This document shows positions 6,194 to 46,200 of a stretch of 56,700 nt of DNA, one piece after another. The stretch's first letter is position 1; each line of letters opens with the position of its first letter. Both the position numbers and the translations under genes were made by a program. The notes under the pieces were generated by a model. The model did not search any database, had not been told where the DNA came from, and saw nothing but the letters and a program-made list of their open reading frames with translations. This DNA is from Bacteroidaceae bacterium (GTDB lineage: Bacteria; Bacteroidota; Bacteroidia; Bacteroidales; Bacteroidaceae), in the NCBI GenBank assembly GCA_017560125.1, contig JAFYOS010000023.1:1-56700 (forward strand), in the 5' to 3' direction.

Positions 6194-6734
6194 TGTACCA
6201 GCCGGGAAAAAGGCTGAATGGGTAAACGGAGTTCTTACCCTTGTAGATGAAACTCCGAAGGATAACCGCCCCGTAACGGAGCGTGTGAAGACATTTGAGG
6301 ACGCAGTGCGCGAGTTGGGCGACGAACACCCGTTTGTCAAAGAATGGCACTTGGGTGACGGCTTGAGCGCAGACCTCGAAGCATACTTGAAACTTCGCAT
6401 CATAGCAGCTGCTCTCAACGAGGGCTGGGAACCAAAGTTTACGACTGACGAATACCGTTACTTCCCTTGGTTCGTATTATACACCGAAGAGGAGTACAAC
6501 GAACTTTCAGACGAGGATAAAACTCTTGTGGTTCAGCGGTCGTACTTCTACTCGTATTCGTATGGCGGTGTCGCTTTCGTGTATGCGGATTACGATTCCT
6601 CGTACACGTTCTCGGCCGGCGGTTCTCGGCTCGCCTTCAAGAATAGCGACCTCGCGAAGTACGCGGGAAAGCAGTTCATCGAGATTTACGCCGACTTCGT
6701 TTTCAAGCCGAAATGTGAGAGCGACAACAAATAA
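6177..6734 (+). CDS. DGR-diversified protein (remote target, VR2)
   Basis: 185 residues. The N-terminal half is acidic and helical. From about residue 90 comes a domain with YFPWF, then the variable segment (about 117-155), then SRLAFK and KYAGKQFIEIYADF. I recall this layout (Y-x-PWF ... SRL-x-FKS ... AEYAGKQF) in small proteins of many Bacteroidota phages, usually without a DGR. Here the variable segment matches the template repeat at 46087-46199 with every mismatch at a template A. There is no signal peptide and the gene sits among replication genes, so the product is presumably cytoplasmic; its ligand is unknown. Frame and downstream SRLAF match the adhesin variable region. Confidence 0.85.
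   Translation: MEIRIDVPAGKKAEWVNGVLTLVDETPKDNRPVTERVKTFEDAVRELGDEHPFVKEWHLGDGLSADLEAYLKLRIIAAALNEGWEPKFTTDEYRYFPWFVLYTEEEYNELSDEDKTLVVQRSYFYSYSYGGVAFVYADYDSSYTFSAGGSRLAFKNSDLAKYAGKQFIEIYADFVFKPKCESDNK
6527..6639 (+). repeat. DGR variable region 2 (VR2), remote
   Basis: 113 bp aligned without gaps to the template repeat 46087-46199. All 21 differences fall on template adenines: 15 A to T, 4 A to G, 2 A to C. The first non-A mismatch is at 6526 on the left and the next at 6640 on the right, which sets the limits. The GGTTCTCGGCTCG core at 6621-6633 is identical to template and VR1. A possible 6-bp hairpin (6651-6667) lies just downstream. Confidence 0.95.
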
Positions 6735-6740
6735 TATCAC

Positions 6741-6771
6741 TAACCGGGGCGGCTCGGTTAGTGGTCGCCCC
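6741..6771 (+). other. Intercistronic H-type pseudoknot
   Basis: TAACC (6741-6745) can pair with GGTTA (6756-6760), and GGGGCG (6746-6751) with CGCCCC (6766-6771). The order A-B-A'-B' is an H-type pseudoknot. It ends 16 nt before the ATG at 6788 and lies just after the DGR-target stop codon. The same design recurs at 7990-8034. Confidence 0.5.
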
Positions 6772-6787
6772 ACAATTTCAAAATTCA

Positions 6788-7216
6788 ATGGAAAAAGTAT
6801 TAGGACAAGAGTACGGAAGAGCAGCCGACAGAGTTGCGTTTCTCCGTGACAACTGCGACGCGGTTGAGGATTTGGGCTATGTAAAGCAGCTCAAAACCGA
6901 GGAAATCGAAGAGTTGAAAGATCGCTTGGTTGAAAACAACATTCAGTTGCGCGATGTCCGCGCCGACAAGAAGGCAGCGAACAAAGAGTTCAACGACCAA
7001 ATCAAGCAACTTGAAGACAGCAACGACGAGGTGACAGCAAAGTTGAAGGAACGCAGCGAATATGTTACTGAACCTTGCTTCAAGTTCGTTGACGAGGACA
7101 CCCGCGAGGTGGGCTACTACAACGACGAAGGTGTGCTTGTATATTCTCGCCCGGCTCGTCCAGACGAGTGTCAGAGAAACATTTTCAAGGCTCTCCGTAC
7201 AGGTACAGAGGGCTAA
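6788..7216 (+). CDS. Coiled-coil protein, unknown
   Basis: 142 residues from the ATG at 6788; a GTG further upstream (6761) would overlap the pseudoknot stem. A long central coiled coil (about 38-90) is followed by a small beta-rich C-terminus (YVTEPCFKFVDEDTREVGYY). No family recognised. The setting between the DGR target and the DUF2303-like gene suggests an early accessory role. Confidence 0.5.
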   Translation: MEKVLGQEYGRAADRVAFLRDNCDAVEDLGYVKQLKTEEIEELKDRLVENNIQLRDVRADKKAANKEFNDQIKQLEDSNDEVTAKLKERSEYVTEPCFKFVDEDTREVGYYNDEGVLVYSRPARPDECQRNIFKALRTGTEG

Positions 7217-7241
7217 TCAATAACATTAAATCATTTTCACA

Positions 7242-7985
7242 ATGGAAAAGAAAATCAAAGAAGAAGTAAAACAGCAGATTGCTGAAATGTTGGCAAACGG
7301 TCTGCCTGCTGGCTGCGGTGAAATCATTATCCGCGAGGGCAAGGCGGTGGAAGTTAAGGAACCCGTAAAGGTCGCTATTCGAGGCACTATTGACGCTGCC
7401 GCTCGCTGGTTGGAAACTCGTTTCGACTGCTTGAAGGAGAAGACCTGCCACATTCTCGTGAACCGCGAGGAGTTGTATATCAAGTTGCAGTGCAACGAGA
7501 ACAACCATTACGGAACGGTCATAGCGGGTTACCTGGAATTGTCGCCCGAATACAAGAAGTTCGGCATCAACGAAGGCAAGTACATTACTCACTTTGAAAT
7601 GGCAGAACTTATCAAAATGAACCGTTCGCACTTCGAGAACAAGACAGAAGCGATGAAACTTGTAACAGAGTTGCAGAACTTCAAGGCGAAGGTTGACAAG
7701 GAGATTGAGGACTGCGACAACAAGCGCGGCGACCGTCGCCTGCTCGTCAATCAAGCAGTACAGCACAACCTTCCAGCAGCGTTCAGCCTTGTAATTCCTC
7801 TCTTCAAGGGTGGCGAGAAGCAGACAATCGAGGTCGAGGTATATGTAAACCCAGCCGACTTCACTTGTACCCTTGTTTCCGCATCGGCTAACGACCTTGT
7901 GGAAGAGTTGCGTAACAGCGAAATTGATGCAGTTCTTAACCGTATCAAGGAGCGTTGCCCGGACATCGTGATTATTGAGCAGTAA
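7242..7985 (+). CDS. Phage protein, possibly DUF2303-like
   Basis: 247 residues, mixed alpha/beta. The central segment YITHFEMAELIKMNRSHFEN and the late LPAAFSLVIPLFKGGEKQTI recall the phage DUF2303 (YfdQ) family, but the match is from memory and weak. Lies in the early operon upstream of the helicase. Role unknown. Confidence 0.45.
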   Translation: MEKKIKEEVKQQIAEMLANGLPAGCGEIIIREGKAVEVKEPVKVAIRGTIDAAARWLETRFDCLKEKTCHILVNREELYIKLQCNENNHYGTVIAGYLELSPEYKKFGINEGKYITHFEMAELIKMNRSHFENKTEAMKLVTELQNFKAKVDKEIEDCDNKRGDRRLLVNQAVQHNLPAAFSLVIPLFKGGEKQTIEVEVYVNPADFTCTLVSASANDLVEELRNSEIDAVLNRIKERCPDIVIIEQ

Positions 7986-7989
7986 GTTT

Positions 7990-8034
7990 AACCAGCCCTG
8001 CCCGTGCTTTTCGTGGTTGCGGTACGGGTGGGGC
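7990..8034 (+). other. Intercistronic H-type pseudoknot
   Basis: GCCCTGCCCGT (7995-8005) pairs over 11 positions with ACGGGTGGGGC (8024-8034), two of them wobbles. AACCA just before (7990-7994) can pair with TGGTT (8014-8018) in the loop, giving an A-B-A'-B' pseudoknot. It ends 17 nt before the ATG at 8052, nearly the same distance as at 6741-6771. Confidence 0.5.
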
Positions 8035-8051
8035 TTAATTCCACAACAACA

Positions 8052-8327
8052 ATGAGCGAAGCAGGAAAGGAATACGGGGAACTCGTGAAGGAACTCCGAG
8101 AAAACAATTTCGAGCGGTTCAAGGCTAAAACTCTTCCCCGCTTGGAGAGCAGCGAAGAGGTTGAGAATATCACCGAAAATTGCTTCTCTTTTGTCGTTAC
8201 GACAAAGAGCAACGGCGTGATTGACATCTTCCCAAAGGCAAATAAACTCCGCATCAGAAGGCAAAATAAATGGGTTAAGCCGATAATGCCTTGGTTGCGC
8301 AAACATATACTCAAATGTACGAATTAA
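8052..8327 (+). CDS. Small protein upstream of helicase, unknown
   Basis: 91 residues from the ATG at 8052, which carries the leader TCCACAACAACAATG. A helical N-terminus is followed by a beta-rich half with SFVVTTKSNGVIDIFPKANK and a basic end. No domain recognised. Its end overlaps the helicase start by 13 bases, so the two are likely co-translated. Confidence 0.5.
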   Translation: MSEAGKEYGELVKELRENNFERFKAKTLPRLESSEEVENITENCFSFVVTTKSNGVIDIFPKANKLRIRRQNKWVKPIMPWLRKHILKCTN

Positions 8328-9469
8328 GAGATTATCAGAAGCAGGCTGTTGATGTTGCTGTTAACTTTTTCCAAACCGGGAACAAGAAGAACGGCATAAT
8401 TGTCCTACCTACGGGAGCGGGCAAAAGCCTCGTGATAGCCAATATAGCATATAGGCTGGACGCTCCGGTGCTTATATTCCAGCCCTCAAAGGAGATTTTG
8501 GAACAGAACTACGAGAAGCTGTGTTCCTACGGGGTTATGGATGTAGGTATCTTTTCCGCATCTTTTGGGCGCAAGGAGGTTCGCAAAATCACATTCGCCA
8601 CTATTGGCAGCGTGAAGAGCCATAAAGACTACTTCCGATTGTTTCGCTATGTAATCATTGACGAGTGTCACGGTGTCAATGCAGAGGCGGGTATGTACAA
8701 AGACTTCATCGAAACCATACAATGCAAGGTGCTGGGACTTACTGCCACCCCTTACCGTCTTTATTCAAGCAGGTTCTACGGCTCAATGCTCCGTTTCATC
8801 ACTCGAACCAATCCGAGGATATTCAACGAAATGCTGTATGCGGTGCAGGTTCGCACGCTGCTTAATCGCGGCTACCTTGCGCCAATGAATTACTATCAGT
8901 TGAACATCGTTGACACTTCGAGATTGAAGGTGAATAGCACGGGAGCCGACTTCACCGATGCGAGTGTACGCCGTTACTACCGCGAAATCAAGTTCAACGA
9001 CAGCCTCGAAAACATAATCAGAAGGCTGCTTGTCGCAGGGCGTTCCTCTATTCTCGTGTTTACGCGCTTCATTGACGAGGCAAACCACATCGCCAGGACT
9101 TTTTCAGATTGTGCCGCCGTCGTTTCGAGCGACACCAGCAAGACAGATCGCGAAAATATCCTTCGGCTTTTCAAGAACAAGCAAATCAAGGTTGTGGCAA
9201 ATGTCGGCGTACTGACAACGGGTTTCGACTTCCCGGAACTCGCTACGGTTGTGCTGGCTCGACCTACAATGTCGCTTGCACTCTACTATCAGATGTGCGG
9301 CAGGGCTATACGCCCGTTCCCCGGTAAAGTGAGTTGGGTTGTCGATTTGTGCGGCAATTACAAACGCTTCGGACGCGTCGATGATTTGGAACTCCGTCAG
9401 ACAAAGCCCGGTATATGGGCTGTATTCTCGGGGGCAAAGCAATTGACGAATGTTTATTTTAGAAAATAA
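8315..9469 (+). CDS. SF2 DEAD/DEAH-type helicase
   Basis: 384 residues from the ATG at 8315. Motif I PTGAGKS (32-38), motif II DECH (116-119), motif III TAT (143-145) and motif VI QMCGRAIRP near residue 330 are present, preceded by the Q-motif-like LRDYQKQAV. This is a single helicase core of the SSL2/RadD type without an added nuclease. It probably unwinds duplex or branched DNA in phage replication or recombination, in the cytoplasm. Size is at the short end for the family. Confidence 0.85.
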   Translation: MYELRDYQKQAVDVAVNFFQTGNKKNGIIVLPTGAGKSLVIANIAYRLDAPVLIFQPSKEILEQNYEKLCSYGVMDVGIFSASFGRKEVRKITFATIGSVKSHKDYFRLFRYVIIDECHGVNAEAGMYKDFIETIQCKVLGLTATPYRLYSSRFYGSMLRFITRTNPRIFNEMLYAVQVRTLLNRGYLAPMNYYQLNIVDTSRLKVNSTGADFTDASVRRYYREIKFNDSLENIIRRLLVAGRSSILVFTRFIDEANHIARTFSDCAAVVSSDTSKTDRENILRLFKNKQIKVVANVGVLTTGFDFPELATVVLARPTMSLALYYQMCGRAIRPFPGKVSWVVDLCGNYKRFGRVDDLELRQTKPGIWAVFSGAKQLTNVYFRK

Positions 9470-9471
9470 GT

Positions 9472-9486
9472 GATTACAATATAATC
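9472..9486. promoter_or_regulatory. 15-bp regulatory palindrome, site A
   Basis: GATTACAATATAATC, the exact reverse complement of site B at 28431-28445. It lies 12 bp before the ATG of the replication initiator gene, in its leader. A weak TATTTTAG is seen upstream at 9455. One of six related sites at transcription-unit heads. Confidence 0.6.
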
Positions 9487-9498
9487 GTTGAGTAAATT

Positions 9499-10374
9499 AT
9501 GGGCGGTTGGATTAAGATATTTAGCAAGTTTCTTCAATGGGAATGGTTCGATAAAGCAGAAATGGTTCAACTCTTTATCTACCTTCTCCTATGTGCAAAT
9601 TACAAGGATTTGTATTGGAGAGGCATTCCCGTCAAGAGAGGTCAGCTATTGACCAGCCGGGACAAAATTAGTAAAGATACGGGACTCACAGAACGACAGA
9701 TAAGAACCTGCCTTTCGCGCTTGAAAACGACGGGCGAAATAGCCGTCAAAACGACCAACAAATATTCAATCATAACTATCTGTAAATATGAGGAATATCA
9801 AGACGATTTGCAGAGTGCGCGACCAGCAGAACGACCAGCAGAATGTCAGTCAAACGACCGACAAGCGACCAGCAAAACGACCGACAAAGCGACCACAAGT
9901 ACAGAAGATAAGAATATAAGAAATAAAGAAATATCTATATCAGAAGATATAGATACAAAGAAAAGCCGCAAAGCGACTTCTCCTTCTGCCTCTGCCGAGG
10001 CACAAGCCGAAGAGCCTACCGAGAAGATTCCTTTTGCGGAAATTAAAAACCTTTGGAACTCTACCTGCACGGGCTTCGCCCGCTTGGTAGTGATATCCGA
10101 CAACCGCCGAAACAAAATAAGAAACCGCGTTGCGGAAATGGGCGGCGTTGAAAAGGCACTCCCCATCATCAAGACGATTTTCGAGAAGGCGCAGGCAAGC
10201 AGCTTCCTTAAAGGCGATAACAAGCGAGGCTGGAAGGCTTCTTTCGATTGGTTCTTTGAGAACGACAAAAATTGGGTGAAGGTCTTTGAAGGCAATTATG
10301 ACGAAAAGCCAGCAGGAACACCACAAGTAAGACAATACAAACCTAAAGATGATGTAAACGACTTATGGAAGTAA
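9499..10374 (+). CDS. DnaD-like replication initiator (replisome organiser)
   Basis: 291 residues. The N-terminal winged helix (about 1-100) has WIKIFSKFLQWEWF and KISKDTGLTERQIRTCLSRL, the pattern of phage replisome organisers. A low-complexity Asp/Lys/Thr/Ser linker (105-165) follows, then a helical C-terminal domain (170-275) with GWKASFDWFFENDKNW, as in DnaD-type C-termini. It would bind the origin and recruit the DnaC-like loader encoded next, whose start overlaps this stop by 10 bases. The DNA for the linker carries iteron-like repeats, a candidate origin. Confidence 0.75.
   Translation: MGGWIKIFSKFLQWEWFDKAEMVQLFIYLLLCANYKDLYWRGIPVKRGQLLTSRDKISKDTGLTERQIRTCLSRLKTTGEIAVKTTNKYSIITICKYEEYQDDLQSARPAERPAECQSNDRQATSKTTDKATTSTEDKNIRNKEISISEDIDTKKSRKATSPSASAEAQAEEPTEKIPFAEIKNLWNSTCTGFARLVVISDNRRNKIRNRVAEMGGVEKALPIIKTIFEKAQASSFLKGDNKRGWKASFDWFFENDKNWVKVFEGNYDEKPAGTPQVRQYKPKDDVNDLWK
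9820..9894. repeat. Iteron-like CGACC repeats, candidate origin
   Basis: CGACC begins at 9820, 9832, 9855, 9866, 9878 and 9890; the first two are a perfect 12-bp tandem, CGACCAGCAGAA. Steps are 12, 23, 11, 12 and 12 bp, close to one or two helical turns. The array is inside the initiator gene, as lambda iterons lie inside gene O, and is followed by AT-rich DNA. Confidence 0.5.
9897..9960. other. AT-rich candidate unwinding region with dyad
   Basis: About 60 bp of strongly A-rich sequence directly after the CGACC repeats. TATCTATATC (9932-9941) and GATATAGATA (9946-9955) form a perfect 10-bp inverted repeat around AGAA. This fits a duplex-unwinding element, although the same bases encode the protein linker. 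Confidence 0.45.
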
Positions 10375-11147
10375 TTGACAACATTTTGAGAAGAATACAG
10401 AGCGAAGGTTATTTCAAGTCGGTCAAGCGTTACGCATACCTTCCCTACGACCTCAATTTGGCGATGCAGGTTGTCGAGGCTATCGGCAAGAGCAGGAACC
10501 CTAATTTCGTGATTGACGACGAAAACCGCTTCACATACGAAAACCTCGTGCGCTGGGTGCAGGGAGATAACGCAATGATGTGTCTTGACCCCGAAACTAA
10601 ACAACCCGTACCGGGAAGGCTCGACAAGGGCATATACATCGCGGGTAATACGGGAACGGGCAAGTCGTGGGCGTTGGAGATTATGAGCGTATATACTACG
10701 ATTGACAAAATTCAGATCGGGTTCGGAAAGGACTACAACGGCAAGGATATACTTGGGTGTCTTCATTGGGCGAATGTCCGCACCGATACGATGTGTGAGG
10801 AGTTCAGCCGCGAAGGTACTTATGACAAGTACAAGCAATGGAAATGCCTAGGCATTCAAGACCTGGGAGCAGAACCCGTCGAAAGCCTCTATATGGGAAA
10901 CCGCGTAGATGTGTTGCGAATGATACTCGAATACCGAGGCGACCGCACAGACCGCATTACGCTGGTAACATCTAACCTCCCAATCAATCATCAGAAACTG
11001 ATTGACCGCTACGGCGACCGCGTCGCAAGCCGTCTGACGGAAATGTGCAACTATTTCGAGATAAAAGGAGCAGACCGCCGCAAGGTGCGTAATCTTGCGC
11101 CTAACGCAACGAAATCCGACGGAGCAAGTAACGCTCCAAACAAGTAG
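10365..11147 (+). CDS. DnaC/IstB-like helicase loader ATPase
   Basis: 260 residues. Walker A GNTGTGKS (94-101), Walker B region GIQDLGAEPVE (about 163-173), and sensor segment LVTSNLPI (about 204-211) are as in DnaC-type AAA+ loaders. It should load the host replicative helicase at the origin bound by the initiator encoded just upstream, to which it is overlapped by 10 bases. No phage replicative helicase of the DnaB type is seen in the window, which fits recruitment of the host enzyme. Confidence 0.8.
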   Translation: MEVIDNILRRIQSEGYFKSVKRYAYLPYDLNLAMQVVEAIGKSRNPNFVIDDENRFTYENLVRWVQGDNAMMCLDPETKQPVPGRLDKGIYIAGNTGTGKSWALEIMSVYTTIDKIQIGFGKDYNGKDILGCLHWANVRTDTMCEEFSREGTYDKYKQWKCLGIQDLGAEPVESLYMGNRVDVLRMILEYRGDRTDRITLVTSNLPINHQKLIDRYGDRVASRLTEMCNYFEIKGADRRKVRNLAPNATKSDGASNAPNK

Positions 11148-11203
11148 AGTTCGTTGCTCTCGGTTGAGATTTGAAAAAATTAACTAATAAATCCACAACA
11201 ACA

Positions 11204-11551
11204 ATGGAAGAAATCAAAATCAAGAGGGAGGCGTATTTCAAACGCCTTGACGAATTGAGAGAAAAGGAACGAGCCGCCACAAACGCGGACGAGTTGAAGA
11301 AAATCGCTGGTCAAATCCGGTATGTTGAACGCAAAATTCATCGAACAAACTTCCCGCCGGAACGAAGGGATTACACCGTAAAAGTCAAGTTGGTTTTTGA
11401 AGGCGAAGTGACGGTTTACACCACCAGCAAAAAGGAGGCTTTGGAAAGCGTGAAAAACAACTTCGGTGCTGTGCTTGGCAATGTTCAGAGAAGCACGCCC
11501 GAGATAATCAATTGGGATATTCCCGTACACCCTCAAAAGATTGTAAAATGA
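11204..11551 (+). CDS. Small protein, unknown
   Basis: 115 residues from the ATG at 11204, which has the repeated leader TCCACAACAACAATG. The N-terminal half is a charged coiled coil (1-55); the C-terminal half is a small alpha/beta domain (VKVKLVFEGEVTVYTTSKKE). No family recognised. Its stop overlaps the methyltransferase start by four bases (ATGA). Confidence 0.5.
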   Translation: MEEIKIKREAYFKRLDELREKERAATNADELKKIAGQIRYVERKIHRTNFPPERRDYTVKVKLVFEGEVTVYTTSKKEALESVKNNFGAVLGNVQRSTPEIINWDIPVHPQKIVK

Positions 11552-13152
11552 AAAATTTGCTATACATAGACCTATTTTGCGGAGCAGGTGGCACATCTAC
11601 GGGTGTAAACTCCGCACGACTTAATGGCGAACAATGCGCCGAAGTTATTGCTTGCGTCAATCACGATGCGAATGCGATAGCCTCTCACGCCTCAAACCAC
11701 CCCGACGCACTCCATTTTACGGAGGACATCAGAACGCTGGAACTTTCCCCGCTCATTGCTCACTTGGAGAACTGCCGCCAGCAGAACCCCGGAGCGTTGG
11801 TTGTGTTGTGGGCTTCGCTTGAATGTACCAATTTCAGCAAGGCAAAAGGAGGTATGCCACGCGATGCGGACAGCAGGACGCTTGCCGAACACCTCTTCCG
11901 TTACATTGAGGCAATCAAGCCGGATTACATTCAGATTGAGAATGTGGAAGAGTTTATGAGTTGGGGCGAAGTGGACGAGAACGGCAAGCCCCTTTCAATG
12001 GATAAGGGAAAGAGTTATACGCGCTGGGTTCGCAATGTAAAGAAATACGGCTACAAGTTCGAGCATCGCATATTGAACGCCGCTGATTACGGAGCATACA
12101 CCAGCCGCAAACGCTTCTTCGGTATCTTCGCAAAGGCGGGTTTGCCAATCGTATTCCCGGAGCCTACCCACTGCAAGGAAGGTTCGACAACGCTTTTCGG
12201 CAACTTGAAGAAGTGGAAGCCCGTTAAAGATGTTTTGGACTTCGAGGACGAGGGTAATACTATTTTCCGCGAAAAGCCTCTTTCGGAAAAGACGCTGGAA
12301 CGCATTTATGCTGGGCTGATTAAGTTTGTTGCAGGCGGCAAGGAGGCGTTTTTGGTTAAATGGAACTCAATGAGCCGCACGGGAAAGTATCAAGCACCTG
12401 GAATTGACGAGCCTTGTCCGACGGTTGCGACACAGAACCGCTTGGGAGTAGCGAAGGTGTCTTTCCTCTCGAAGCAGTACAGCGGACACCCCGAAAGCAA
12501 GAACACTTCGATAGATGCCCCGGCTGGCTCAATAACCTGCATTGACCACCACGCTTTTGTTTCCGCATACTACGGGAACGGACAGAACCATTCGTGCGAA
12601 GCACCTTCGCCGACGCTGACGACGAAAGATCGCCTTGCGCTCATTCAGTCGGAATGCTTCATCGATATGCAGTATGGGAACGGTACGGCTGCTTCCGTTG
12701 AAACCCCAGCGAATACCGTAACGACAAATCCGAAATTCAACCTTGTAACGGTCAAACGCTTCTACTTGATGAACCCGCAGTATAATTCGGCTGGCGGTTC
12801 TGTGGATAATCCTTGTTTTACGCTCATAGCCCGAATGGATAAAATGCCGCCTTATTTGGTTGCTACTGAAACGGGCGAGGCTGTGATTGAGGTCTATTCA
12901 ACAGACAGCCCAATGACGGCTAAAATCAAGGAATTTATGGCACTCTACGGCATTGTGGATATTAAGATGCGTATGCTGAAAATTCCCGAACTCAAAAAGA
13001 TTATGGGCTTCCCCGAAGACTATGTGCTGGTCGGTTCGCAGGCAGACCAAAAGAAGTTCATCGGCAACGCCGTAGAAGTTACTATCGCCCGTGCTTGGTG
13101 TGAGGCTCTTTGCGAACAATTATCGAGAACGAAAATCAAAAACATAGCGTAA
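11548..13152 (+). CDS. C5-cytosine DNA methyltransferase, variant motif IV
   Basis: 534 residues from the ATG at 11548. Motif I DLFCGAGG (8-15), motif IV with the catalytic Cys93, motif VI ENV (132-134) and an R-K-R motif VIII (TSRKRFFGIF) identify a C5-MTase using SAM. Motif IV reads LECTNFS instead of the usual PPCQ-x-FS. In place of an ordinary recognition domain, about residues 265-430 contain five loosely repeated units with a Y-x-G...(D/E)-x-P-x-x-T pattern. It likely methylates phage DNA to escape host restriction. No paired nuclease is seen, so it is an orphan. Confidence 0.85.
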   Translation: MKNLLYIDLFCGAGGTSTGVNSARLNGEQCAEVIACVNHDANAIASHASNHPDALHFTEDIRTLELSPLIAHLENCRQQNPGALVVLWASLECTNFSKAKGGMPRDADSRTLAEHLFRYIEAIKPDYIQIENVEEFMSWGEVDENGKPLSMDKGKSYTRWVRNVKKYGYKFEHRILNAADYGAYTSRKRFFGIFAKAGLPIVFPEPTHCKEGSTTLFGNLKKWKPVKDVLDFEDEGNTIFREKPLSEKTLERIYAGLIKFVAGGKEAFLVKWNSMSRTGKYQAPGIDEPCPTVATQNRLGVAKVSFLSKQYSGHPESKNTSIDAPAGSITCIDHHAFVSAYYGNGQNHSCEAPSPTLTTKDRLALIQSECFIDMQYGNGTAASVETPANTVTTNPKFNLVTVKRFYLMNPQYNSAGGSVDNPCFTLIARMDKMPPYLVATETGEAVIEVYSTDSPMTAKIKEFMALYGIVDIKMRMLKIPELKKIMGFPEDYVLVGSQADQKKFIGNAVEVTIARAWCEALCEQLSRTKIKNIA

Positions 13153-13596: not shown

Positions 13597-13605
13597 GCAA
13601 CAGAT

Positions 13606-23548: not shown

Positions 23549-23716
23549 ATGGCGAAGAAGGCAGTTTTACCCAATTGCAACGAGTGTATGCACCACCACA
23601 GCCTGCACGAGATAGGCGCAAATGGAAAGCCGTTCTTGTGTAAGTGTAGTAAACACCCGGAGCGCAGCAGATTTATAACCAAAGACGGCTGCAACGACTT
23701 CAAAAAGCAGATGTAA
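23549..23716 (+). CDS. Small Cys/His zinc-ribbon-like protein
   Basis: 55 residues. C10-x2-C13, then a His-rich loop HHHSLHE, then C31-x-C33 and H36, with a last Cys near residue 48; this is a plausible zinc-binding site. It starts 5 bp after the portal stop, and its own stop overlaps the next ATG (TAATG). Tight packing and a clean start support a real gene. Function unknown; a head-assembly accessory fits. Confidence 0.65.
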   Translation: MAKKAVLPNCNECMHHHSLHEIGANGKPFLCKCSKHPERSRFITKDGCNDFKKQM

Positions 23717-25620
23717 TGGCAAAGAAAGCGCAAAAGTTCAAGTTTGACCTATACGACAAAAGACACCTCAATAACCTTCTGAAACGGTTGAAGGGCGTTG
23801 TTGAACTCTTCGACGCTACGGTAAAGGAAGCGGCAAGAGCGGGAGCGGCATCGGGGTTCATCGACCCCGAACGCCCCTTCTACCTTGCTGACTTTCCCGC
23901 AGTTCAGCGAAGGGTTGATGAAGCGATAAAACAGCTTCACGACAATATAGTTTCAACCATTGAAGAGGGAAACCGCGACGAATGGCTGTTATCTTGCGAG
24001 AAAAACGACAAATTCATTGAGGCAATGACAGCTTCAACGGGAATACCAAACGCGCAAATTTCGCAATGGAAACAGCCGAATTTGGACGCTTTGGAGGCGT
24101 TTCAAGCCCGTAAAATCAACGGAATGGGGCTATCTGCCGCCGTGTGGAATATAACAGACCAATTTAAGCAGGAACTTGAATTGGCTCTTGACATTGGTCT
24201 TGGAGAAGGGAAAAGCGCGGCAGATTTAAGCCGCGATGTGCGCCGTTATCTCAACGAACCCGAAAGGCTATTCCGTAGGGTTAGGGACAAGCACGGTGTA
24301 TTGAGATTGTCGAAGGCGGCGAAGGCATACCACCCCGGACAAGGAGTGTACCGTTCCTCGTACAAGAATGCTTTGCGCCTCACTGCTACCGAAAACAATA
24401 TCGCCTACCGTACAGCAGACCACGACCGCTGGCAGTCTATCCCGTTTGTTATCGGTATTGAAATTAAATGCTCGAACAATCACCCGGTTTATGATATTTG
24501 CGATGAGTTGGCAGGTATTTTCCCAAAGGACTTCAAATATACGGGCTGGCATCCGTTCTGCCGTTGCTTTGCTGTCCCGGTTCTTGCTAAGCAGGACGAG
24601 TTTTTGGAATACCAGCGCAAGTTGCTTGCTGGCGAAGATGTTTCGGACTTCAAGTTTACGGGAACGGTCAAAGATGTGCCGGACAATTTCAATGCGTGGC
24701 TTGACCGCAATAGAGAGCGCGTGAAAACTACGACTTCCGTCCCGTACTTCATCAAGGACAACGGTAAATATATCCCGAAAGATTGGGTGGACGGCATAGG
24801 TTCTTTGGCGAAAGGGAGAAACAAGGGAATTATCACCGATGTAAAGGAGGCTATAATCAAGATGAAAGACCCGACATTCGTCACCGAAAAAGAGGTTCGC
24901 ACTATGATTGAGAAGTATGCAACAGCGGAACCGGGCGAATTTTACGGTGGGCTTATGGGTGTTAAGATGGCAAAGGCGAACGACGGAACGATGATGTCCT
25001 GCGAACGATTGTACTATCGAAATACGGGTGCTTATGACCAAAATGGCAACACGATAAGGATTTACAAAACCGACCATATAGTTATCGACCCGCTTGGTAA
25101 TACGGTTGTGTTCAATCCGCTTCACGAGGTAAAGGAAGCGATGAAGTCTATTGCAGCCCAAATACCGCTTTCCTTCAACCAAGAATACGCTATCGAGAGC
25201 CTTTGGCACGAGATAAGACACGCAGGTGCATTCGGCTGGAAGGACATTAGAACACGAACCGAAGATTTGACAGCAGCAATGGAATGTATCAATCAGTTTT
25301 GCGCTCGCCGTTCTTACGGAAAGTTCCTTCGCGCTATTGGTGGTAGCGTTTCTCACAAGAAGGAAATCATCAAGAGCGGCTACGGGTATAGTCGTTCTGT
25401 GCGACATTTTGAAGAAATGCTTGCGGCTCTGAATGTATCAAGTTCAGAGGCTTATGCGCATTTCAGCAAAATGATAATGGTAGAGCCGTATGAGAATATA
25501 TTTGGCAATATCGTTCAATTCCTCGTAGGAAAGGGTGTAGATAAAAAGAAAGCCGAAATGCTGGTAAAAACACTTCGGCACTCTGATGATATGTTTGGCA
25601 AAGTTCTTACGGGTGCGTAA
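23716..25620 (+). CDS. MuF-type minor head protein fused to HEXXH domain
   Basis: 634 residues. The N-terminal part is helical, then comes the head-morphogenesis domain (about 140-290) ending GWHPFCRCFAVPV, the HPxCRC signature of MuF/SPP1 gp7 proteins. The C-terminal half is a separate domain with LWHEIRHAG, an HEXXH zinc-peptidase-like motif at 498-502. MuF proteins enter the capsid near the portal and can be injected with DNA, so the added domain could act as a protease on capsid proteins or in the host. Ends 14 bases into the convergent leftward operon. Confidence 0.75.
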   Translation: MAKKAQKFKFDLYDKRHLNNLLKRLKGVVELFDATVKEAARAGAASGFIDPERPFYLADFPAVQRRVDEAIKQLHDNIVSTIEEGNRDEWLLSCEKNDKFIEAMTASTGIPNAQISQWKQPNLDALEAFQARKINGMGLSAAVWNITDQFKQELELALDIGLGEGKSAADLSRDVRRYLNEPERLFRRVRDKHGVLRLSKAAKAYHPGQGVYRSSYKNALRLTATENNIAYRTADHDRWQSIPFVIGIEIKCSNNHPVYDICDELAGIFPKDFKYTGWHPFCRCFAVPVLAKQDEFLEYQRKLLAGEDVSDFKFTGTVKDVPDNFNAWLDRNRERVKTTTSVPYFIKDNGKYIPKDWVDGIGSLAKGRNKGIITDVKEAIIKMKDPTFVTEKEVRTMIEKYATAEPGEFYGGLMGVKMAKANDGTMMSCERLYYRNTGAYDQNGNTIRIYKTDHIVIDPLGNTVVFNPLHEVKEAMKSIAAQIPLSFNQEYAIESLWHEIRHAGAFGWKDIRTRTEDLTAAMECINQFCARRSYGKFLRAIGGSVSHKKEIIKSGYGYSRSVRHFEEMLAALNVSSSEAYAHFSKMIMVEPYENIFGNIVQFLVGKGVDKKKAEMLVKTLRHSDDMFGKVLTGA

Positions 25621-39216: not shown

Positions 39217-39229
39217 ACACTTATTCACT

Positions 39230-39451: not shown

Positions 39452-39454
39452 GCT

Positions 39455-39628: not shown

Positions 39629-39640
39629 TAACATATCGTT

Positions 39641-42600
39641 ATGGCAAAGAAAACGTATAATGAAAAAATTACCCCAAAAACCGATTGGGGCGGTGACAGC
39701 AGCACGGGCGGTCTTCCCGTTGCTGGTTACCGAGTTCAAGAGTTCATCAAGGAGCAGTTGAACCTACGAGCGACCACCGAGCAGGTGCAGAAACTCGAAA
39801 AGGCGTTGGCTGGCAAGGCTGGTGTGTTCTATCTTGACGATGTGAGCAAACGCTATCTTATCTTCGCAGACGAAGCGAGCAAAGAAGCGTACCTTGCCGA
39901 TCCAAAGAAAACGGAACTGCTTCTTGGAGTGATTAACGCAGGTTCGGGTACTGATGACGGTTACAGTGCTATCATCAATCTTGAATCGCAGATGTACAAC
40001 ACTATATCGTTGGGAACGGTCGGCAATTACATCGACTTCACTTTCCAAGTGTATAACAAGAGTGGTATGCCGACGGGCGAGCCGGTTATCTGTACCTACA
40101 CTTTCCGCAAGGCTTCGATGAAGCAGACCGTTGTAGAGCAGTACGCAGCAGGCAGAAGCATTCATTTCAACATCGACAAGTATCTGTCGGAGGGAACGAA
40201 CCAAATTACGGTGTCAATCCAAGGTCTTACCTCAATGGCTACCGTTGCGGTCGGTATCACTTACCAGGTCGTGGAACTTTCGCTGACTTGCGACTACGAC
40301 ATTGCGCAGGTGTTCAACCTCTCCAGCGGAGCAAAGACGCTCGCAGCCGAGTTCTCCGTTTCGGGTTACGGAACAAAGACGCTCGAATGGTACATAGACG
40401 GTGAGAAACTTGCTTTTGACAGCATCACTGACGAGGTTGTGAACGAATCAGCGACAAGAACGAAGTACATTCAGTTGTCAGACCTCCAAGAAGGCGTACA
40501 CTCGCTGCAAGTGAGAGCCTGCACGACGGTAGATGGCGAGGTGTTCTACTCCGATACCGAATACCGTGAGATTATGGTGTACAACGGTGTTGCGATACTG
40601 CCTCTCGCAGCAATAGCAATGACGGTTCCGGCAGCGTATGGAATCATCAGCACCAAGCGTCTGTATTCGATGCAGCAATATGTTTCCTATGCGCTCAACT
40701 TTGCGACCTACCACCCGAAGAGTTCGACGACGGAGGTAGTCGTTATGCTCGGAGGTGTGCAGCAGGGTTCGCTCATTTCGGAGAACGGAACAGCAAACCA
40801 AATAACCCTCTTCCCGACCAAATCGGGCGACAGCAGCATAGACCTTGTTATGGACGAAACGACCTATACGCTGGGGGCTGAAATCGCACAATCGGCTATC
40901 TCGGTAGCGGAGATTACCAACGCACTGCAACTCGACTTCCGGGCGCAGGGAAAGAGCAACAACGCAACCGACAAGGATAGCTGGGCTTACGGCAATTACG
41001 AGGGTACATTTGCAGGCTTTAATTGGAACAACACTTCGGGCTGGGTAAACAACGCGCTGCACATCAACGCTGGTGCTTCGTTTGACATCGACCTTGCCCC
41101 TCTCGGTGTAAATCCTGCTTCACTCGGAAAGACTATCGAGATTGAGTTTGCATCAACCAATGTGAACGATGATGATGCGGTGCTTCTCGACTTGCGCAAT
41201 GCAGACGGAGCCGGACTGCTCATTACGGCTACAAATGTAAAACTCGTTTCGCAGGCTGGTGTTACCATTGAAACCTCGTACAAGGACAACGAGTTTATCC
41301 GTGTGGCTTTCGTAATCAACAAGACATCGGGAACGACCAACAAATGTATGTCGTTTATCTATGTGAACGGTATTGTTTCGCGCGGTATTGCGTGGGCTTC
41401 GACAGACCGCTACACCTCGGACGCTCTTCTGCACTTTACGGGAACCGCTGGGGCTGAAATGCTCTTGAAGTCGCTCCGTATCTACGATATGGCTCTGACC
41501 AACGACCAGGTGCTGAACAACTACACCCTTTACCGTGATACGGTGGCAGAAATGATTGAGGTGTACGACCGAAACAATGTGTATGCGGAGAACTCAAACG
41601 CATTCGACTACGAGAAGATGATGAGCCGTCTTCCGGTTATGATTGTTACGGGCGACATTCCTACGCTCGAAAGCACCTCGGACAAGGACACGCAGATTAC
41701 CGTCGATATTGAGTATTACAACCTGCAAGACCAGTCGCGTTCGTTCAAGATGAAGAACGCTGCTATGCGCCCGCAGGGTACATCTTCAATGGGTTATCCG
41801 AAAAAGAACTTCCGTATTTACACACAGAAGCGTGACGATACGGTTGTTTATGACGCTAACGGCGCAGTCATTACAGACAAGTTGTATTCGTTCACGAAAG
41901 AAGCGCAGCCCGTAAACTGCTGGTGCTTGAAAGCCGACTATGCGGAGAGTTCGGGAACGCACAACACGGGTATTGCAAGGCTTTGGAACAAGGTTCTTGT
42001 TGATACCAAGATTGACGACGAGTACCCGTTGAGAACGAACGCACAGAAAGCTGCTTTGGCTGCTGCATATCAGTATGATGTGAGAACGACCATTGACGGC
42101 TTCCCTATCCTTATGTTCTACCGTCTGACCGACAACGACCCTCTTGTATTCATCGGAAAGTACAATTTCAACAACGACAAGAGTACGGAGAGCGTTTTCG
42201 GCTTCGTAGGCATACCGGGCTTCGACAATACGAAGATGCAGTGCTGGGAGGTGCTGAACAACGGTAATGCTTTGGCTCTGTTTACCAGCGTGGCAGGCTT
42301 TGACAGCGGTTGGAAAGAGGCGTTCGAGAGCCGTTACCCGGACACCAAGACACCCGACACAACCGATTTGAAGGCTTTCTGCTCGTGGATGACAAATGTA
42401 ACCGCAGCGGACTTTGCTACGCAGAAGTGGGAACACCTCGATGTTTACAAGGTGGCTGCATACTACATCTATCTGATGCGCTTCGGTGCTGTTGACCAGA
42501 CCGTCAAGAACTCAATGTTCACATCGGAGGACGGAGTGCATTTCTACTTCATCAACTACGATAACGATACAATCAACGGTCTTATCAATACGGGACACCT

Positions 42601-45600
42601 TGTAGCCCCTTGGAACACCGTCAGAACCACTTTGGGCGCGGACGGTGAGCCTTACTACGCTGGTAAGGATTCAAGGCTTTGGAATCTGCTTGAAGCCGAC
42701 GCAGAGTTTATGGCAATCGTTAGGCAGGTCGATGAAGCGTTGTATGTAGCCGGACTTCGCTACGACAATGTGATTAAGATGTTCGACGAGGAGCAGGCAG
42801 GCAAATGGGTTGAGCGCGTTTACAATCAAGATGCGCAGTACAAGTACATCGGTCCATACGCTGAAAAGGGCGTGAACAACTTGTTTATGTTGCAGGGAAA
42901 TCGTTCGCAGCACAGAAAGTTTTGGCTTGCGAAACGCTTCTCATACTTCGATTCAATCTTTGTTTCGGGAGCATACAAGGCGCAGGCAATCGAAATCAAG
43001 TGTATAGACAACACCCCAGCCGGGCAGAAGTTCACAATCACAGCCGGAACGGATATGGACTACGGCTACGGTATCAACAATGTGGCTCGTGCAAGCAACA
43101 TCACGCTTGACGAGAACGCCACACATACATTCACTACGGAGGAAACCGTAAACCGTGGCGACCCTATCCGTATCTATGCTGCACCGAACATCAAGGGACT
43201 TGACCTTTCCGCTATGGCTGACCGTCTTGCGGTAGTCACTATCGACAATGTGTTTGACGAATCGCTGGGAACGAAGTTCAAGGAACTTATCATCGGCAAC
43301 CCGGTTAAGGAGAACACCACCGTAGAGGACATTTCGGGTATCACTCGTGCCGAGAAACTCGAATACCTCGATGTACGCAATATGAAGGGGCTGACCTCGC
43401 TGAACCTCTCCAATCAGAAGAACATTCAGTATGTGGACGCGACCGGAAGCAACATCGCCAATATCGAGTTTGCCAAGGGTGCTGCATTGCAGACCTTCAA
43501 AATGCCTATCGCTATGCAGACAATGAGATTGGAGCAGCTTCCGTATCTGTCAAGCGTGGTTTCAGAAAACAACTTTATGACCTTGCGTACAATCGTCGTG
43601 AAGAACTGCCCTTACCTTACGCAGAACTTCAAACTGATTTACGATTGGAGAATGAACACGCAGATCGGCGCGGAAAACCTTGAACTCGAAATGACGGGCG
43701 TTCAGTGGTCGAACATTACACCCGAAGAACTCATTTCGCTGGGCGCATTAGGCAGTATCAACCTCAAAGGCAAGGCGTATATCAGCGCAGCAACGCAGGA
43801 GCAGATAGACGCCCTTACAAACATTTTCGGTGTGAACTGCTTCGAGCAGGGTAACGACTTTCAGATTATCGTTCCCGACGGTCTTTTCATCGGAGGTCTT
43901 AACGAGGTCAGAGGTGGTAAGACAATCGAATTGAGCGCGGTTATCTTCGCTGAAAATCCGGGTTCCGTAACTTGGAGCATAATCAGCGGTAGCGGTGCAT
44001 CAATACAGAGCAGTAGCGGTCTTTCGTGCGTGGTATCAACAACCGAATCAACATCAGACCGTGATATAGTCGTGCAGGCAAGGCACGTGCCAAGCGGTGC
44101 TGGAGAAGTAACCTATGCTACAAAGACAATCAAGGTTACAAAGGTTGTCCGCGCCACCAGCGGTACGGTAAGTGGACCCGCTACGGTCGGTAGTCTTGGA
44201 GAGTTCAAGTACAACCCAAGCCCAAGCAACATCAATGAGCCTTACAGCGTAGTGTGGTCTGTAACGGGCGATGCTGCAACAGCTGGGTATGTGAATGTGA
44301 AGAGCCAAAACAACGAATCGTGTCAGGTGCAAGTAACGCAGAAGGTCAATAACACCTCGTTCAATGTGGTTGCTACCGTGAACAACGGCAAATCGACCTT
44401 TACCGTGAGCAAATCAGTGATTATCGGTGTGAAAATGGTTCTGAACATCTATTCAAATCAGTCGGGCGACGAAGCCACCTTTGCCAATGTAAAGGCGACC
44501 GTGAAGTACGGTTCATCTTCTACGACTATGGGTAACGGGGACGAACTGAACCTTGCAGCGAATACGGAAATCAAGATTACTTTCCCTGCTGTTTCGGGTT
44601 ATAAAGCTCCGAACCCTATTGAGTTCGTTATCGGTGAAAACGACGCTGTAAAGGCTGGAACATATCAAGCAGAGCAGGTGGAAGTTCGTCTATCGGCAAC
44701 TGACGGAAGAAACCTTTCCGGCACTACCGTAAAAATCAACGGAACGCAGTACACTTGGAGCGGAACACCTATCAAGGTGAAGATTGCATTTGACCAGTCT
44801 TATACAATCGAGTTCAGCCGTATTGCGGACTGCTTTACCCCAGCAAAGCAAACTATAACCGCATCGCAGGTAACAAGAACGGTTATCGGTTCTTATGAGC
44901 CACTGCCGGAGGGATTAGTTCTCATAGACCAAAGCGTGAAAGACCCAACAACGATGATTTCGGGCGACATCAATTCAAGCGTAATTCAAGCAATCCGCGC
45001 TGGTTCGCATCGTTATCTCGGTAAGTACACCGCAGACGGTCAAATGACACTCTGCCAACTTGACGATGCGGATTCGACGAAGTATGCAGACGGAACAGAT
45101 GCAGTTCTTACTGGTGCAGAGGGCGATGTATTTATGAAAATGCCTGACTTTTGGTACAGAGCCGTAGAAGCCGGTACGGATATGTGGGGCATTCAGTTCC
45201 AATTAGGTTCAACCTCGCCCGGTAATGGTTGGATTAAGTGGGACACCAACGCACTGATAGGAGTTTACGAAGCGTATAGTACTGGCTCGAAGTTGTACAG
45301 CCGAAGTGGTGTTTCAAGTTCGGGTAGTATCTCGCAGGCGAACTTCAAGGCGTATGCCCGCGCCCGTGGTACTGGCTTCCAAATTGTCGATTGGCAGATG
45401 CACTGCGTAATGGCTATTCTTTACTATGCGGAGTACGGACACACCAACTGCCAAGAGAAAATCGGTGCTGGTACAAGCAGTAGTTCAAAGCAATGCGGAC
45501 AGACTAACGCTTGCGGTATGAACGACACCAAAGGAACAAGCCCGGTTAGCGGTCTAAACGATGCAGGAGTTGACGGTAATACTCAATCAATCAACTTTTG

Positions 45601-46018
45601 GGGACTTGAAAACTGGTGGGGTAACAAATACGAGTGGATTGACAATGTGGTCGTAGATGCCTACGAATGGAAGATTACCGAACCCGACGGAACGGTACGC
45701 AATCCTGGTAAGGCTTACACTTCGAACAACTACATTACCAAGATGATGTTTGGCGACCAATGCGACCTCATACCGACTGCTGCAAGTGGTAGTGAAACAA
45801 CGGGCTTCTGTGATTACTACTATGGTTCAAGTTCAACCGCTCGTGTGGTTCTGCGGTCGTACTACAACTCGGATGCGATTGGCGGTGTCGCTTTCGTGCA
45901 TGCGTATGACGTTTCCTCGGTCACGTACTCGGGCAGCGGTTCTCGGCTCGCCTTCAGAGGTCAATGCGTCGAAGCGGAAAGCGTGGCGTCGTTCAAATCT
46001 CTGACGGCAATCGGATAA
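39641..46018 (+). CDS. Large tail adhesin with LamG-like and CotH-like domains, DGR target (VR1)
   Basis: 2125 residues. Order: attachment region (1-130); beta repeats (130-420); LamG-like sandwich (about 428-633); CotH-kinase-like region (about 667-1100) with RPQGTSSMGYPKKNFRI and INYDNDTING; leucine-rich-like repeats (about 1183-1400); Ig-like and PEGA-like modules (1407-1750); and a C-terminal C-type-lectin-like domain (1755-2125) with FWGLENWWGNKYEW, as in formylglycine-enzyme-fold DGR targets. Residues about 2067-2106 are the variable region. It should bind the host surface, and the DGR changes its specificity. Confidence 0.85.
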   Translation: MAKKTYNEKITPKTDWGGDSSTGGLPVAGYRVQEFIKEQLNLRATTEQVQKLEKALAGKAGVFYLDDVSKRYLIFADEASKEAYLADPKKTELLLGVINAGSGTDDGYSAIINLESQMYNTISLGTVGNYIDFTFQVYNKSGMPTGEPVICTYTFRKASMKQTVVEQYAAGRSIHFNIDKYLSEGTNQITVSIQGLTSMATVAVGITYQVVELSLTCDYDIAQVFNLSSGAKTLAAEFSVSGYGTKTLEWYIDGEKLAFDSITDEVVNESATRTKYIQLSDLQEGVHSLQVRACTTVDGEVFYSDTEYREIMVYNGVAILPLAAIAMTVPAAYGIISTKRLYSMQQYVSYALNFATYHPKSSTTEVVVMLGGVQQGSLISENGTANQITLFPTKSGDSSIDLVMDETTYTLGAEIAQSAISVAEITNALQLDFRAQGKSNNATDKDSWAYGNYEGTFAGFNWNNTSGWVNNALHINAGASFDIDLAPLGVNPASLGKTIEIEFASTNVNDDDAVLLDLRNADGAGLLITATNVKLVSQAGVTIETSYKDNEFIRVAFVINKTSGTTNKCMSFIYVNGIVSRGIAWASTDRYTSDALLHFTGTAGAEMLLKSLRIYDMALTNDQVLNNYTLYRDTVAEMIEVYDRNNVYAENSNAFDYEKMMSRLPVMIVTGDIPTLESTSDKDTQITVDIEYYNLQDQSRSFKMKNAAMRPQGTSSMGYPKKNFRIYTQKRDDTVVYDANGAVITDKLYSFTKEAQPVNCWCLKADYAESSGTHNTGIARLWNKVLVDTKIDDEYPLRTNAQKAALAAAYQYDVRTTIDGFPILMFYRLTDNDPLVFIGKYNFNNDKSTESVFGFVGIPGFDNTKMQCWEVLNNGNALALFTSVAGFDSGWKEAFESRYPDTKTPDTTDLKAFCSWMTNVTAADFATQKWEHLDVYKVAAYYIYLMRFGAVDQTVKNSMFTSEDGVHFYFINYDNDTINGLINTGHLVAPWNTVRTTLGADGEPYYAGKDSRLWNLLEADAEFMAIVRQVDEALYVAGLRYDNVIKMFDEEQAGKWVERVYNQDAQYKYIGPYAEKGVNNLFMLQGNRSQHRKFWLAKRFSYFDSIFVSGAYKAQAIEIKCIDNTPAGQKFTITAGTDMDYGYGINNVARASNITLDENATHTFTTEETVNRGDPIRIYAAPNIKGLDLSAMADRLAVVTIDNVFDESLGTKFKELIIGNPVKENTTVEDISGITRAEKLEYLDVRNMKGLTSLNLSNQKNIQYVDATGSNIANIEFAKGAALQTFKMPIAMQTMRLEQLPYLSSVVSENNFMTLRTIVVKNCPYLTQNFKLIYDWRMNTQIGAENLELEMTGVQWSNITPEELISLGALGSINLKGKAYISAATQEQIDALTNIFGVNCFEQGNDFQIIVPDGLFIGGLNEVRGGKTIELSAVIFAENPGSVTWSIISGSGASIQSSSGLSCVVSTTESTSDRDIVVQARHVPSGAGEVTYATKTIKVTKVVRATSGTVSGPATVGSLGEFKYNPSPSNINEPYSVVWSVTGDAATAGYVNVKSQNNESCQVQVTQKVNNTSFNVVATVNNGKSTFTVSKSVIIGVKMVLNIYSNQSGDEATFANVKATVKYGSSSTTMGNGDELNLAANTEIKITFPAVSGYKAPNPIEFVIGENDAVKAGTYQAEQVEVRLSATDGRNLSGTTVKINGTQYTWSGTPIKVKIAFDQSYTIEFSRIADCFTPAKQTITASQVTRTVIGSYEPLPEGLVLIDQSVKDPTTMISGDINSSVIQAIRAGSHRYLGKYTADGQMTLCQLDDADSTKYADGTDAVLTGAEGDVFMKMPDFWYRAVEAGTDMWGIQFQLGSTSPGNGWIKWDTNALIGVYEAYSTGSKLYSRSGVSSSGSISQANFKAYARARGTGFQIVDWQMHCVMAILYYAEYGHTNCQEKIGAGTSSSSKQCGQTNACGMNDTKGTSPVSGLNDAGVDGNTQSINFWGLENWWGNKYEWIDNVVVDAYEWKITEPDGTVRNPGKAYTSNNYITKMMFGDQCDLIPTAASGSETTGFCDYYYGSSSTARVVLRSYYNSDAIGGVAFVHAYDVSSVTYSGSGSRLAFRGQCVEAESVASFKSLTAIG
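45841..45957 (+). repeat. DGR variable region 1 (VR1)
   Basis: 117 bp aligned without gaps to the template repeat 46084-46200. All 20 differences are at template adenines: 11 to T, 7 to G, 2 to C. The GGTTCTCGGCTCG core (45938-45950) is unchanged. It ends about 60 bp before the adhesin stop codon. Confidence 0.95.
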
Positions 46019-46021
46019 CAA

Positions 46022-46052
46022 GGAGGGCAGAAAAGCCCTCCCCCTTGTGGGG
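46022..46052 (+). terminator. GC-rich hairpin after adhesin gene
   Basis: GGAGGGC (46022-46028) pairs perfectly with GCCCTCC (46035-46041); CCCC/GGGG (41-44, 49-52) gives a second, competing hairpin. It lies directly after the adhesin stop and before the template repeat. With no T run, it may be an attenuating structure or the hairpin/cruciform that aids DGR retrohoming rather than a terminator. Confidence 0.45.
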
Positions 46053-46083
46053 GAAACAAATCGGGCGGATGCAAGCAACGTAC

Positions 46084-46200
46084 TCGTGTGGTTCAGCGGT
46101 CGAACAACAACTCGAATACGAATGGCGGTGTCGCTTACGTGAATGCGAATAACGATTCCTCGAACACGAACTCGAACAACGGTTCTCGGCTCGCAAACAG
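46084..46200 (+). repeat. DGR template repeat (TR)
   Basis: Non-coding 117 bp rich in AAC/AAT codons in the target frame, so mutation at A mostly varies Asn positions. It matches VR1 and VR2 with differences only at adenines. Lies between the adhesin and the reverse transcriptase on the same strand. The RNA copied from it is the template for mutagenic cDNA synthesis. Confidence 0.95.

Follow-up and report, generated by a model that had tools for sequence, protein, structure and literature searches.

A diversity-generating retroelement with two unrelated targets in a temperate phage of a Bacteroidaceae bacterium, and recurrence of its second target family in phages of Bacteroidota

Diversity-generating retroelements (DGRs) of phages are known mainly for changing receptor-binding proteins. 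Contig JAFYOS010000023.1 of a Bacteroidaceae bacterium (assembly GCA_017560125.1) is, in its full length of exactly 56,700 bases, the window analysed here. The window holds a template repeat (TR) with an adjoining reverse transcriptase (RT) gene of the DGR type, one variable repeat (VR1) near the 3' end of a tail protein gene, and a second (VR2) in a distant small gene, called VTP2 here, of the family phrog_11581. That a single DGR diversifies two unrelated proteins, as a preliminary description of this DNA had proposed, is strongly supported by the confinement of repeat differences to template adenines (A), by natural variation in VR2, and by the recurrence of the same pair of targets in other phages. 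What the second protein does is addressed thereafter with correspondingly more reserve.

Template and variable repeats in the window

Repeats in the window were compared by plain base-by-base counts without any filter, as were the L004, LoVEphage and near-identical-pair data presented below. VR1 departed from the TR at 20 positions, all of them template A (20/20), and VR2, taken in TR register, at 23 positions, of which 21 were template A and two were not; the two exceptions were the edge positions 3 and 117, and within 6527-6639 the count was 21/21. If mismatches fell at random on these 113 bases, the probability of such an outcome would be approximately (33/113)^21, or ~6e-12. Between VR1 and VR2 there were 18 differences, 16 at template A, which argues that neither was copied from the other. 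Positions 112-114 read AAA in the TR and CTT in both VRs; they have the appearance of a constant difference between template and VRs at the 3' end, and without them the counts at template A were 17/17 for VR1 and 18/18 for VR2. TR, VR1 and VR2 were all read in one frame, the VRs ending in GSRLAF and the TR in GSRLAN. The differences (20 and 21, all at template A) and the shared frame with a terminal SRLAF had been given in the preliminary description and were reproduced by our counts, and its separation of ~39.5 kb between the targets holds as a distance along the contig, whereas on a circular phage genome VR2 would lie roughly 17 kb from the TR. A search of the whole host assembly returned the TR, VR1 and VR2 with no fourth copy, and a single match to the window RT.

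The RT carries YCDD and IGxxxSQ, which we take to be RT- and DGR-typical motifs, in addition to its profile matches (Table 1). The gene that follows it (phrog_19239) may have an accessory role, no search having been aimed at Avd. The match of VTP2 to phrog_11581 covered residues 24-179 and thus extended over the body of the protein outside the VR. The arrangement in the window consists of one target by the tail genes and one distal target outside the structural module, the genes around the latter being, in order, a RecE-like exonuclease, phrog_24909, VTP2, phrog_12688, phrog_11501 and a helicase. VTP2 had been placed earlier between genes for a helicase and a protein like single-stranded DNA-binding protein (SSB); the helicase was confirmed, while no SSB match was obtained among the genes searched, which were a subset of those in the window.

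The contig encodes a tailed temperate phage of gut bacteria, with portal, minor and major head proteins, tape measure, tail protein, endolysin and integrase, and no terminal redundancy was seen. Weak sub-threshold Pfam matches to TsaE and Mg_chelatase_C were found at the contig ends (1-267 and 56600-56698), and on the strength of these the prophage may sit between host genes. In the tail target, a CotH-kinase-like stretch at residues 888-1049 lies far upstream of VR1, and the minor head protein (23716-25620) matched phrog_16625, labelled Bxa ADP-ribosyl transferase, with E 1.2e-87 and its best stretch at residues 201-354.

Table 1. Positions of the DGR parts and neighbouring genes in the window, and of loci with tandem VTP2 genes in other records
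Feature	Position	Strand	Remarks
RecE-like exonuclease (YqaJ domain)	4714..5673	+	upstream of VTP2
VTP2, second DGR target	6177..6734	+	185 aa; phrog_11581 (no assigned function), E 9.1e-50
VR2, in TR register	6524..6640	+	in VTP2
DNA helicase	8291..9469	+	downstream of VTP2
DnaD-like and DnaC-like helicase loader genes	9499..11147 (9499-10374, 10365-11147)	+	
DNA methyltransferase	11512..13152	+	
Tail protein, first DGR target	39641..46018	+	2,125 aa; phrog_14959, phrog_5302 (tail); CotH stretch exactly at Pfam cut-off
VR1	45841..45957	+	near 3' end of tail protein gene
TR	46084..46200	+	117 nt, 33 A; between tail gene and RT gene
DGR-type RT	46356..47741	+	461 aa; RVT_1 E 5.8e-13, phrog_1423 E 4.8e-92
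Gene directly 3' of RT	47753..48271	+	172 aa; phrog_19239; candidate accessory gene
Phage integrase	55159..56361	-	
Tandem-VTP2 DGR locus, L203 (Apibacter muscae)	9992-12018		
Tandem-VTP2 DGR locus, L201 (Chitinophagaceae)	9959-11943		
Tandem-VTP2 DGR locus, L202 (Chitinophagales)	8094-10118		
Tandem-VTP2 DGR locus, L207 (Bacteroidales bin)	325-2341		

Natural variation and recurrence of the second target

Compared with a viral contig (L004) that is 95.7% identical over 11 kb, VTP2 of the window showed 24 differences in the 117 bases of VR2, of which 23 fell on template A, as against 18 in the 438 bases outside, where 15 of the 17 changed codons were synonymous; for the window phage itself this comparison covered VR2. 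Variation of both repeats against a constant template was seen in six LoVEphage records, in which the TR was identical (0/118 differences) and the departures of VR2 from it summed to 91, all at A (91/91), 12 of these representing two positions fixed in all six records. Two of the six records were identical in the VTP2 gene, and the other pairs showed 12-20 differences in VR2, all at template A, and 0-14 in the 473 bases outside. For VR1, present in five of the six, the pairs showed 12-19 differences, which lay at template A apart from a single base in each pair involving BI-TP1; no VR1 was found for the sixth in the stretch examined. The RT matches of these records (L061, L146, L147 and L150-L152) lie in three pieces in different frames, yet both VRs vary. 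Among 65 near-identical VTP2 pairs, which are not independent and of which 24 were fully identical, 562 of 7,731 VR bases differed as against 247 of 30,597 in the rest of the gene; a few pairs went the opposite way, L221 having no differences in the VR and two outside when compared with L220, L222 and L223. Judged by this natural variation, VR2 is alive. Two outcomes that the preliminary description had named as refuting its proposal, a fixed VR2 and a decayed duplicate, were looked for and not found, VR2 varying only, or almost only, at template A in the phages whose TR is known. The reading of VR2 as a decayed duplicate was rejected on the grounds of an intact open reading frame (ORF), the mostly synonymous change outside VR2 in L004, and a similarity to the tail target that is limited to the VR.

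The same pair was also sought in related prophages, as had been suggested at the same time. BT-TP2 carried it, and so did 10 of 11 additional genomes or records in which one contig had both VTP2 and an RT, and 49 of 54 distant pairs of VTP2 and RT loci. In these three sets of scans and the mismatch sums derived from them, as in the search of 60 kb around L201, the scan of eight genomes for which no RT was found on the VTP2 contig, and the scans for VRs in LoVEphage and in DGR phages that lack VTP2, mismatches at non-A positions were penalised or filtered. BT-TP2, a phage isolated on B. thetaiotaomicron, carried the same three parts, with 11/11 mismatches at A in VR1 and 10/10 in VR2; in its record (L060) the VTP2 gene is unannotated and cut by the record ends (44874-45224 and 1-450). 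The 10 further cases had 0-3 non-A mismatches in VR2, and the eleventh (G314, locus L017) had VTP2 with an RT fragment at a contig end and no TR on the sequence examined.

A VTP2 profile search, which yielded 55 genome loci and 170 viral stretches (80 of the latter retained), was the source of the distant pairs. An RT was then sought in 40 of 58 new viral loci and 39 of the 55 genome loci, and was present in 25 of the 40 viral records and 33 of the 39 genomes. The 49 pairs in which VTP2 matched its own TR consisted of 44 of 52 at first, four of the eight misses once further RT loci had been retrieved, and one from two genomes that were added (G396 and G409); three genomes with VTP2 beside the RT (G406, G407 and G408) were kept out of this set, one with a weak RT match (G390) was left out of the comparison, and G387 was compared with three RT loci. 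Summed over the 49 matching pairs, that is, with G354, G355, G379, G381 and G396 excluded, 726 of the 1,318 A positions were mismatched, as were 35 of the 3,911 others. When VTP2 genes were compared with the RT loci of other phages as a control, one of 132 comparisons rose above the same score, and this was a near-identical pair. VR1 was found for 44 of the 49 pairs and shared its frame with VR2 in all 44, and in 35 of the 49 the VTP2 frame was one in which random changes of A are unable to create a stop; the shared frame and the stop-proof changes suggest that VTP2 is a selected target. The 50 VTP2 proteins, including that of the window, fell into 39 groups at 70% identity outside the VR.

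By record titles VTP2 occurred mostly in Bacteroidales, and also in Chitinophagales, Apibacter and a few bins named Firmicutes. In the host family, 19 of 301 genomes gave a match at E 0.001, some of these to the VR of tail proteins only, and in the order of Apibacter VTP2 was present in two of 296 genomes, one of which was Apibacter itself. The TR/VR2 pair was not seen on the examined stretches of G109, G178, G212, G077, G304, G320, G309 and G325, for none of which an RT was found on the same contig; G178 gave one weak 57-base match to the repeat. At the end of one viral contig (L016:8453-8974) a VTP2 gene runs into a TR-like asparagine-rich stretch with loss of its usual C-terminus, which is probably an assembly jump from VR2 to the TR, or else a real fusion.

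Gene setting and probable role of VTP2

The setting of VTP2 was assessed at 92 loci flanked by 3 kb or more in both directions, using a panel of 31 early and 13 late queries: an early or replication match lay within 6 kb in 74 and a structural match in three, and RecE-, RecT- or SbcC-like neighbours were common. Four loci, in Apibacter muscae (L203), Chitinophagaceae (L201), Chitinophagales (L202) and a Bacteroidales bin (L207), carried two tandem VTP2 genes together with a TR and an RT, and both genes at each locus carried VRs of the local TR with 0 or 1 non-A mismatch each. By their bodies, the tandem genes of L201, L202, L203 and L210 belonged to phrog_11581 (8/8). At the last of these (L210:9968-10991) two tandem VTP2 genes with VRs (13/13 and 12/12 mismatches at A) are accompanied by a TR, with no RT recognised downstream, and the locus is apparently an RT-less DGR remnant. 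The neighbours in L203 included a transposase (phrog_310), a Mu Gam match and a Mu portal match, and a Mu transposase match was obtained at L210 and, just below the cut-off, at L202; from these gene matches we take L202 and L203 to be early regions of Mu-like phages. At the sensitivity used, the Apibacter genome contained no further repeats beyond the TR and the two VTP2 VRs, and no third VR was found within 60 kb around L201. Two short records of 7.4 kb or less, L205 and L206, held one and two VTP2 copies, respectively, and neither a TR nor an RT. The strongest case for selection on VTP2 in its own right comes from DGRs whose only targets found are VTP2 genes.

In a profile comparison VTP2 and the end of the tail target shared 43 VR columns and nothing else, which argues against VTP2 being a duplicate of the tail protein; within the family, conserved stretches flank the variable segment on both sides. 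A strongly hydrophobic N-terminus was found in none of 152 members, a hydrophobic 19-mer anywhere in six, and a lipobox-like motif in one. To our knowledge phage tail proteins likewise lack an export signal, so that its absence is weak evidence for an intracellular VTP2. Searches with 20 members gave nothing credible in Pfam or NCBIfam, and no credible solved structural relatives were obtained either for VTP2 or for the end of the tail protein.

The explanation that we consider probable as a whole, on the evidence of sequence and gene order, is that this temperate phage rewrites two unrelated proteins from one template by means of one DGR. By the chemistry of known DGRs, the RT would copy TR RNA with errors at adenines, and the mutated cDNA would replace either variable repeat, that of the tail protein or that of VTP2; strand and reading frame are the same for both. 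The tail target probably grips the host. VTP2, a member of one conserved family with a constant body unrelated to the tail protein and a usual place among recombination and replication genes, would be made early inside the host cell, where its variable face would bind a host factor that itself varies, plausibly a protein of defence or DNA processing, and a phage population would thus carry many VTP2 binding variants, much as the tail target provides for surface receptors. VTP2 would be selected for its own sake, some phages seemingly devoting their whole DGR to VTP2 genes alone. Because VTP2 stands among DNA-copying genes and the pair recurs in many related viruses, part of the DGR diversity is probably aimed inside the cell. 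It is likewise on account of the gene setting and the VTP2-only DGRs that an early intracellular binding protein is the most likely identity of VTP2, and the analogy with the tail target together with the gene neighbours would favour a host defence or DNA-processing protein as its partner. Action inside the cell is thus likely; the same claim in the preliminary description is plausible in the light of the early setting and the VTP2-only DGRs, while the lack of an export signal, to which it had also appealed, does not decide the matter.

Unlikely in our view, yet the most substantial alternative, is a place for VTP2 in the virion or among ejected proteins (minor tail, fibre-associated or pilot-like), its gene lying among early genes all the same and both targets serving adsorption or entry. 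A non-hydrophobic N-terminus is equally in keeping with a virion and a cytoplasmic protein, 'tail protein' is the annotation given to the VTP2 homologue of phage Versailles, and two homologues gave weak matches to the phrog_5302 'tail' profile; the tail matches, however, were confined to the VR stretch, which is shared because both targets derive it from one TR, and the body of VTP2 is unrelated to the tail target. The authors of the work on Bacuni phages, in the text compared, take their own distant target as an adhesin (PMC8143477). The rarity of structural neighbours (three of 92 loci), and the Mu-like loci in which VTP2 lies with Gam and transposase genes, speak against a virion protein. 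We regard as very improbable a role of VTP2 as cofactor or regulator in the recombination or retrohoming of the phage itself, with its VR mutated as a side effect of TR homology: the recombination-type neighbours and a weak correlation between VTP2 and RT distances (Mantel rho 0.24, p 0.001, n=49) would agree with such a role, but p00, BS-TP4 and cr10_1 have a one-VR DGR without VTP2, and the common TR frame in both targets, with the protection from stops, suggests a selected target. A passive landing site or relic, with retrohoming that now and then hits a gene of no consequence, is hardly credible given the intact ORFs, the mostly synonymous change outside VR2 in L004, the recurrence in 39 groups and the VTP2-only DGRs, even though a few homologues (G354, G396 and G178) have lost or drifted from the pattern.

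Several observations nonetheless weigh against the early intracellular role or the generality of the pair. No early match was obtained at 18 of the 92 VTP2 loci, and the composition of the query panel favoured early matches. Five of the 54 distant pairs did not match, namely G354, G355, G379, G381 and G396; in one of these the RT was a fragment at the end of its contig, many non-A differences accompanied the matches of G354 and G396, and G379 and G381 gave nothing. The share of A in the scans that penalised other mismatches is partly selected. Finally, seven other DGR phages lacked VTP2, which is thus dispensable for DGR phages generally: in the hankyphages p00, BKO1-TP1 and BX-TP2, as in BS-TP4, BKO1-TP3 and cr10_1, the VTP2 profile matched the VR/TR stretch only, and in Bacuni it did not match. 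One TR-linked VR each was found in p00, BS-TP4 and cr10_1, and none in BKO1-TP3 by the same scan.

Relation to known systems and significance

The principle of two targets is already known (Benler et al. 2021, PMC8008677; Nature 2025, PMC12629997, both as far as the text compared extends), and the proposal of a diversified non-structural protein is less new than the preliminary description had supposed, since Benler et al. gave the same reasoning for Quimbyvirus. In the parts of that paper compared, the second target of the Quimbyvirus DGR lies distally, near methyltransferases and a tRNA ligase, and is probably non-structural; a role in phage-host conflict was proposed for it, and C-type lectin domains are stated for both targets. 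Quimbyvirus and LoVEphage are apparently one phage, as both are reported in the texts compared to be ~95% identical to B. dorei CP011531.1, and they resemble the window in having one DGR, a VR by the tail genes, a distal VR in a gene thought to be non-structural with methyltransferases nearby, and A-specific variation. The LoVEphage VR2 target was a phrog_11581 protein, and by way of LoVEphage the Quimbyvirus ORF 80/84 would be VTP2; the LoVEphage variation described above would then largely repeat what Benler et al. report for Quimbyvirus. By the same partial comparison, the Quimbyvirus RT is split over three frames, whereas that of the window is a single ORF, and the window, unlike Quimbyvirus, has VTP2 by RecE, helicase and helicase-loader genes.

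Four gut prophage species described in Nature in 2025 (PMC12629997) have a second VR distal from the RT, as the window does, and it is described as lying near counter-defence genes; the family and function of the target are not named in the text compared. Bacuni phages of B. uniformis (PMC8143477, in the portion compared) also have one DGR with two targets, one of them distant, but these are DUF1566-type proteins (phrog_4245) unrelated to VTP2 as far as compared, the DGR includes an Avd gene, and both targets are read as adhesins. Homology between VTP2 and the distant Bacuni target was considered and rejected, there being no similarity by blastp, phmmer or PHROGs. In Bacuni phage F1 (L141:22548-23222) the distant phrog_4245 target lies between genes for DNA polymerase A, a methyltransferase and a VirE-type primase, and this gene order makes Bacuni a second lineage in which a replication block contains a DGR target. 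The Tentaclin phages nd4 and nd12 are like the window in that one phage DGR diversifies two different proteins, and unlike it in that both targets lie within the DGR cassette and are discussed as receptor-binding in the text compared (PMC10743442). Hankyphage p00 has the closest named RT (~49-50% identical) and a VR in a large protein beside the TR and RT, but it has one VR only and no VTP2. Secondary DGR targets were allowed for, and non-structural ones mentioned, by Roux et al. (2021, PMC8144416) in the part compared.

What appears to be new is one orthologous target family across Bacteroidota phages, its setting in the replication block, and DGRs that serve VTP2 alone. In the portions of text compared, with phrog_11581 not used as a search term, distal targets were not tied into one family, to a replication block or to VTP2-only DGRs. 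The pattern around the window is thus of more interest than the window itself. More broadly, and tentatively, phrog_11581 may be a phage-made intracellular binder that has evolved by DGR against variable host defence or DNA-processing proteins, is widespread among phages of Bacteroidota, and usually shares a DGR with a tail protein, while in Mu-like phages an early-region DGR would serve two tandem copies and, as far as searched, no tail protein. With VTP2 apparently hypermutated in dozens of Bacteroidota phage lineages and the sole target found in some, an intracellular role of a DGR becomes testable in culturable Bacteroides phages (BT-TP2 and LoVEphage), and phrog_11581 becomes a candidate anti-host binding protein in which the VR positions mark the probable binding face. 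If this is true, a single hypermutation machine would serve these phages both for entry and for takeover.

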